DNA from: Bacteroidota bacterium
GTDB taxonomy: Bacteria > Bacteroidota > Ignavibacteria > Kryptoniales > JAKASW01
Direction of reading: 5' to 3'
DNA: 64,000 nt
Assembly: GCA_023480735.1 (NCBI GenBank)
Contig: JAMCXB010000027.1
Coordinates: 62,001-126,000, forward strand
Under the pieces are notes generated by a model. It ran no database searches, had not been told where the DNA came from, and saw only the letters and a program-made list of their open reading frames with translations. Of this stretch, positions 26,276 through 63,637 are shown piece by piece. The position numbers and the translations under genes were made by a program. Numbering within the stretch: the first letter of the stretch is position 1; the number at the start of each line of letters is the position of its first letter.

Positions 26276-26377
26276 TGAACTTCATAATACCTTCCCACCC
26301 GGCAAAGACCATTGTTGCAGGCTTCTCCTTATTTGTCGGCATACTTTGTACTCCGTACTTTCAGATGACCTGACACT

Positions 26378-26635
26378 GGGTCTGCGACAAAAATGTAATT
26401 GTATGAAACACATAGGAACATAGGGCGCGTAAGAAATGAATTTATGTGTTCTAATGTGCCTATGTGGTTAAACTATTGCTTTTTACAAATTTGTCGCACA
26501 GTAACCCCTCACTTATGGTTTCTCGCCAAGCCGCATACGAGCTCGCAAAGCGAACCGCTCGTCAACATTTCTTTGCGTTCTTGGCGCCTTTGCGAGAGAA
26601 ATAACCCTTTCAGTGAGGCATTACGTCGCACACCC
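26378..26635. mobile_element. MITE-like element B, interrupted by element A
   Basis: The ends are imperfect inverted repeats of 21 bases (18 of 21 matching): left 26378-26398, starting GGGTCTGCGACAAA; right 26483-26500 plus 26633-26635. A perfect 9-base direct repeat CCTGACACT flanks it (26369-26377 and 26636-26644). An inner inverted repeat (26406-26421 with 26454-26469) makes it almost fully palindromic. Without the inserted copy of element A and its duplicated target, the element is 126 bases and cannot code for a transposase. The parent transposon family is not identified. Confidence 0.8.
26501..26624. mobile_element. MITE-like element A, copy 1, inserted in element B
   Basis: A 124-base element with GTAA...TTAC ends. 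The terminal 13 bases match in inverted orientation at 11 positions (GTAACCCCTCACT against GTAATGCCTCACT), and the pairing continues inward. It is flanked by a perfect 8-base duplication, GTCGCACA (26493-26500 and 26625-26632), which lies in the right terminal repeat of element B. It differs from copy 3 at three positions. GTAA ends plus 8-base duplications are known traits of the IS66 family, so it is probably an IS66-mobilised non-autonomous element. Confidence 0.88.
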
Positions 26636-26644
26636 CCTGACACT

Positions 26645-26869
26645 TGCACTTTGGCAGGACGCACTATAAATTAGCTGTCGCATTAGGGTAAATAGGGCTT
26701 CCGTAGTACCACGTCCTTATTCATAGACTTCGGAAAGATTCTCTCCAAGTGATGTGCATGCCGCTCAAGATCCAACTATCAACGTAGCGACGCCAATTCT
26801 TCTTGACTGAATCACCCCTCAATTTTAGAGGGCAACCGAGTTTGCCAATACCCCTGGGATTGAGAACCC
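26645..26869. other. Gene-free stretch before lptG
   Basis: These 225 bases between element B and the end of lptG show no convincing open frame. The only structure seen is a five-base stem (CCCTC/GAGGG) near 26815-26831, which could be part of the 3' end of lptG. The whole gap 26221-26869 contains the ggt hairpin, the nested elements and this remainder. Confidence 0.5.
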
Positions 26870-46247: not shown

Positions 46248-46359
46248 GTAACCCCACACTTATGGTTTCTCGCCAAGCCGCAAAGCGAACCGCTCGTCAA
46301 CATTTCTTTGCGTTCTTGGCGCCTTTGCGAGAGAAATAACCCTTTCAGTGAGGCATTAC
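46248..46359. mobile_element. MITE-like element A, copy 2
   Basis: A 112-base copy, identical to the others apart from single-base changes near the left end and loss of 12 bases (between two GCA triplets), which removes one arm of an inner stem. It is flanked by a perfect 9-base duplication GAATAGGAT (46239-46247 and 46360-46368). It stands between the cytochrome b unit and folB, 62 bases before the folB ATG. Confidence 0.88.
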
Positions 46360-63513: not shown

Positions 63514-63637
63514 GTACCCCCACACTTATGGTTTCTCGCCAAGCCGCATATGAGCTCGCAAAGCGAACCGCTCGTCAACATTTCTTTGCGTTCTTGGCGC
63601 CTTTGCGAGAGAAATAACCCTTTCAGTGAGGCATTAC
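63514..63637. mobile_element. MITE-like element A, copy 3
   Basis: A full 124-base copy, flanked by a perfect 8-base duplication CTCTTACA (63506-63513 and 63638-63645). Compared with copy 1 it has three changes; one turns a pair of the inner stem into a G-T/G-U type pair. It lies between the giant gene and prfB, 68 bases before the prfB start. Confidence 0.88.

Follow-up and report, generated by a model that had tools for sequence, protein, structure and literature searches.

Nested MITEs of two families upstream of a predicted promoter in a Bacteroidota genome

Structure and order of the nested insertions

Why does one short mobile element lie inside the terminal repeat of another, 3 bp before its right end? 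This question is raised by the ggt-lptF intergenic region of the window, by which we mean the whole stretch of 64,000 nucleotides that was analyzed. The genome searched was the 2.81-Mb, 72-contig and 90%-complete draft that holds the window.

Based on a base-by-base check, the outer element, B, is flanked by a perfect 9-bp target duplication, CCTGACACT, at 26369-26377 and 26636-26644. The first 123 bp of B (GGGTCTGCGACAAA...GTCGCACA) are located at 26378-26500 and the last 3 bp (CCC) at 26633-26635, both on the plus strand, giving 126 bp in total with terminal repeats that match in 18 of 21 positions. B forms a long hairpin, with folding that is far stronger than that of shuffled sequence (z = -7.8). 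The inner element, A, is 124 bp long (GTAACCCCTCAC...GTGAGGCATTAC; 26501-26624, plus strand) and has an 8-bp target duplication, GTCGCACA, of which the left copy (26493-26500) lies inside the right terminal repeat of B and the right copy is found at 26625-26632. The original prediction, that a palindromic element of 126 bases with 21-base ends and a 9-bp flanking repeat is restored by removing A and one repeat, was correct to the base. As the duplication of A consists of the terminal repeat of B, and the duplication of B stands intact outside A, the sequence places B first and A second, in the order originally proposed. The same order was seen from copies of B that occur elsewhere without A, and from the orthologous ggt-lptF locus of a same-genus relative (G002), which carries neither element and in which the flanks align on both sides, with the exact junction blurred by intergenic divergence. 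Facing the insertions is a predicted promoter (26644-26672, plus strand), with TTG at 26644-26646, a spacer of 20 nt and TAAATT at 26667-26672.

Copies and families of the two elements

At least 12 full-length copies of B were found in this genome, among them copies on contigs C47, C38, C35, C56, C45, C25, C70, C52, C4, C53 and C39. Most of them are flanked by 9-bp direct repeats of their own (AAGCTCACT, CCAGGTCAG, GTGTCCCCT, GTTTCGCGG, GATTCCCGG and others), and the closest copy, on C47, is 99% identical, has no A inside and carries the duplication AAGCTCACT. A second MITE type of about 149 bp, with the ends of B and a different interior, was seen on C5 and C45. Group II introns (Rfam RF00029 at L081, L082 and L086) were observed within the hairpin arms of B at CCTATG^TG; the loci concerned are L081, L082, L086 and L044-L048, at the ends of contigs C29, C30, C68, C65, C38, C15, C50 and C72. 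Matching 9-bp duplications of B paired the contig ends C30 and C15 (GGTTACCAC), C29 and C38 (GGAGTCGAG), and C68 and C72 (CTAGATGTT).

The original prediction had left the family of B unnamed and suggested looking for a transposase gene bounded by the same ends. A scan for these ends found both of them around a broken ISKra4 transposase (NF033572) at C1:59607-60658 (1052 bp). When named genomes were searched with the C1 protein fragment, full ISKra4 elements of 1.83-1.86 kb were discovered in Thermodesulfobacteriota and deltaproteobacterial MAGs, together with a shorter element of 1.55 kb in Smithella; among all of these, one carries a perfect 9-bp duplication. The full ISKra4 proteins scored 336 bits against NF033572 (cut-off 205), and 14-bp ends identical to those of B (GGGTCTGCGACAAA...TTTGTCGCACACCC) are present on L178, L179, L182, L184, L190 and C1. 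As identical ends are carried by full ISKra4 elements with NF033572 proteins, B is on sequence grounds an ISKra4-family MITE, and it shares with this family the terminal repeats starting with GGG and the 9-bp target duplication. The draft holds a degenerate ISKra4 transposase and no intact gene was found in it, while the search across the genus genomes gave fragments only. The first ORF of an ISKra4-type element (L079:880-1302) has a match to Pfam DUF6788 (PF20586), and the DUF6788 family may accordingly provide an accessory or N-terminal protein to ISKra4 elements.

For A, about 54 right ends were counted in this genome, and the MITEs of this type are 104-125 bp long. Two more copies are in the window, at 46248-46359 and 63514-63637, each followed by TTG-N20-TAnnTT with the usual spacing to the right end. 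The ends of A begin with GTAA (GTAACCCC.../GTAATGCC...), and perfect direct repeats, 8 or 9 bp long but mostly 8, flank A at 54 of the 67 distinct sites examined here and in relatives. ISDge4, a member of the IS66 family, has similar GTAA ends and an 8-bp duplication (PMC12898284). In the relative G009, IS66 transposase remnants, none of them intact, adjoin the end GTAACCGCTCAGTTACGG, which agrees with the left end of A in 15 of 18 bases and with the right end in 11 of 18, and a lone IS66-type end without a transposase is located on C51 of this genome. An IS66 transposase gene (PF03050) was found neither in the 90%-complete draft nor in G002, and therefore the assignment of A to the IS66 family is probable only. 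Among the genus genomes, fragments in G009 were recovered but no intact IS66 gene, and no gene-bearing element with GTAA ends was found in this genome (G000) or in G002. The intact transposases are probably missing from the draft because repeats were collapsed in the assembly.

Alternatively, A could be unrelated to IS66 and belong to ISLre2 or another Mutator-like lineage that targets promoters. Published promoter homing does concern the p-MULT families TnGBS, ISLre2 and ISKra4 (PMC3942029), and the missing IS66 transposase in this genome and G002 would fit such an origin. However, it is hard to combine with the ends beside the IS66 remnants of G009, which are so close to the left end of A, with the likeness of the GTAA ends and 8-bp repeat to ISDge4, and with the IS66-type ends following the same promoter spacing as A (see below), and we consider it unlikely. 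A is thus probably an IS66-family MITE, and the proposal that two different transposon families had acted at this spot is borne out, one being ISKra4 and the other probably IS66.

Promoter spacing and the probable cause of nesting

Alignment of the A sites revealed TTG 20-21 nt from the right end of A and TAnnTT 23 nt later; among the 45 sites with TTG at that place, the frequencies of T and A at 23-24 nt downstream were 0.89 and 0.91. The Bacteroidota sigma-ABfr promoter has TTTG near -33 and TAnnTTTG at -7 (PMC7366714), and the motif beside the right ends of A and B is, as predicted from its bases, this -33/-7 promoter. Using a strict motif (TTG-N19..21-TA..T) and dinucleotide shuffles as the control, we found it in 28 of 72 right flanks of A at offset 19-22 (0.31 in shuffles) and in 10 of 62 left flanks (0.33), and with the same spacing in 9 of 29 IS66-type ends from relatives (0.15), less than half of all sites having the motif and some sites being common to relatives by descent, so that the counts are not all independent. 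With the same reservations, the motif was present at 18 of 43 right ends of B and ISKra4 elements at offset 15-19 (0.32 in shuffles), 13 of these at exactly 17, and at 5 of 36 left ends (0.14). ORF starts were slightly commoner downstream of the right ends of A (25/44) than of the left ends (16/39), which was not used as evidence. In the window, TTG begins at position 20 from the right end of A, on the mode for A, and at position 9 from that of B, where the end of B is 8 bp from TTG and off its usual 16 bp. These spacings suggest that both A and B insert at a set distance upstream of promoters.

Just past the predicted -7 box, about 35 nt within 26675-26735 of the window (TCGCATTAGGGTAA..AGGGCT.CCGTAGTACCAC) are kept in G002 between convergent ends and may possibly be a small RNA. 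Rfam gave only sub-threshold chance matches over the insertion region including this part, and no folding beyond chance was detected in the 150 nt downstream of the predicted promoter.

A is located at one end of B in six copies of B in this genome (C21, C35, C45, C6, C70 and C52) and in two copies of G002, and in the nests the right end of A points towards the promoter. The distance from the end of B to TTG is 8 bp in C21, 10 in C70, 16 in C35 and C45, 17 in C6 and 16 in C4 of G002, and the corresponding offsets of A from the end of B are -3, -1, +5, +5, +5 and +4. Each of the six nested pairs that have both target duplications shows A at an offset equal to the distance from B to TTG minus 11 or 12; the nest on C52 was left out of this test, its A duplication being absent and the nest likely recombinant. 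As the offset is the one predicted by the distance to the promoter, it argues for a shared landing slot and against chance or attraction to B, and with high probability the nesting is explained by a common slot upstream of one promoter.

On the C52 nest itself (L276; G000 C52:1-900), an apparent right end of A (GTGAGGTATTAC) was observed to the left of B and an A without target duplication to its right, an arrangement that is probably due to recombination between copies of A. Separately, the nests on C70 (L012) and on C26 of G002 (L258) are one shared insertion, with 97% identity over 915 bp against about 82% between the two genomes at the ggt locus, and strong constraint, recent transfer or a binning error are possible reasons.

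Some insertion sequences enter the ends of other transposons, for example IS5075/IS4321 into Tn21-type ends, and the nests share with these the position of one element inside the terminal repeat of another. A might similarly be attracted to the terminal repeat of B, with the promoters being incidental. Six copies of B with A at an end, where random placement would give about 0.01 as estimated from copy numbers, agree with such an attraction, as does the inner ACAAATTTGT at the right end of B, which provides a mirrored TTG half-site at the +5 insertions. However, the offset of A from B varies from -3 to +5 while A keeps a constant distance from the TTG of the promoter, A takes either end of B, whichever faces the promoter, and most copies of A lie away from B ends and yet keep to the same spacing. 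The position of A, in contrast to the IS5075/IS4321 type, thus tracks the promoter and not the end of B, and attraction to B is very unlikely; the inner TTTG half-site of B as the director of A was rejected on the same tracking. A palindrome that arose by chance, or a repeat that does not move (a REP or a terminator, for instance), would account for a strong intergenic hairpin but hardly for the many unrelated sites with perfect target duplications, for transposase-bearing relatives with identical ends or for the empty site. The original prediction had named a lack of further copies and of an empty site as what would make chance plausible; other copies of B and the empty site in G002 were both found, and this reading is refuted for all practical purposes.

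Proposed events and comparison with known systems

Taken together, we are highly confident in an account in which B was moved by ISKra4 and A then probably by IS66, both measured from one promoter. B, being non-autonomous, would owe its movement to an ISKra4 transposase acting in trans. Such an enzyme duplicates 9 bp of the target and favors sites about 16 bp upstream of sigma-A-type promoters, and B would have been placed between ggt and lptF, a short way upstream of the predicted rightward promoter. Later, A, probably mobilized by an IS66-family transposase, would have targeted the same promoter by its own ruler: the 8 bp that it duplicates stop about 11-12 bp short of the -33 TTG, which puts its right end 19-21 bp before TTG, and by then this position lay inside the right terminal repeat of B. 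By analogy with TnGBS and ISKra4, the transposases may read the promoter DNA or bound RNA polymerase, and the promoter, judging from its motif, would be active.

Nested MITEs would in this way be explained without chance or attraction between elements. The chances are about even that the IS66 lineage and its MITEs independently gained a promoter homing in fixed orientation like that of ISKra4 and TnGBS, perhaps by contacting RNA polymerase, and that unrelated families compete for one upstream slot, stack there in an order that can be predicted and remodel the sequence upstream of dozens of promoters. Promoter-tied target choice has been described as an atypical trait of a few Mutator-like transposases. 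Homing of an apparently IS66-related family to the same promoter, at almost the same distance, suggests that promoters or the RNA polymerase bound to them were adopted convergently as a sign of a safe place to land. In an uncultured genus of Bacteroidota, the MITE ends could also serve as natural markers of where promoters lie.

Like the ISBst12-like elements of the IS66 family, such as ISDge4 (PMC12898284), A has ends starting with GTAA and 8-bp direct repeats, and its left end agrees in 15 of 18 bases with ends beside IS66 transposase remnants in the genus. It differs from the family in being a MITE of 104-125 bp and in its fixed-distance promoter homing, for which no report on IS66 was found in the literature searched and which is new here for the IS66-like A. 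For ISKra4 (p-MULT 4, Mutator-like DDE) promoter homing was already known from several members, with sites 13-17 bp upstream of -35 boxes and use of both orientations if the ends are nearly symmetric (Guerillot et al. 2014, PMC3942029). B resembles this family in its GGGT ends, 9-bp direct repeats and identical 14-bp ends, in insertion about 16 bp upstream of the -35/-33 box and in the use of both orientations with near-symmetric ends, whereas B is a 126-bp MITE without a gene and the promoters of its host belong to the TTG/TAnnTTTG type of Bacteroidota. TnGBS and ISLre2 (p-MULT 3) belong to another transposase group with other ends and are comparable to A and B in target choice alone, as they insert in a set orientation 15-17 bp upstream of sigma-A promoters.
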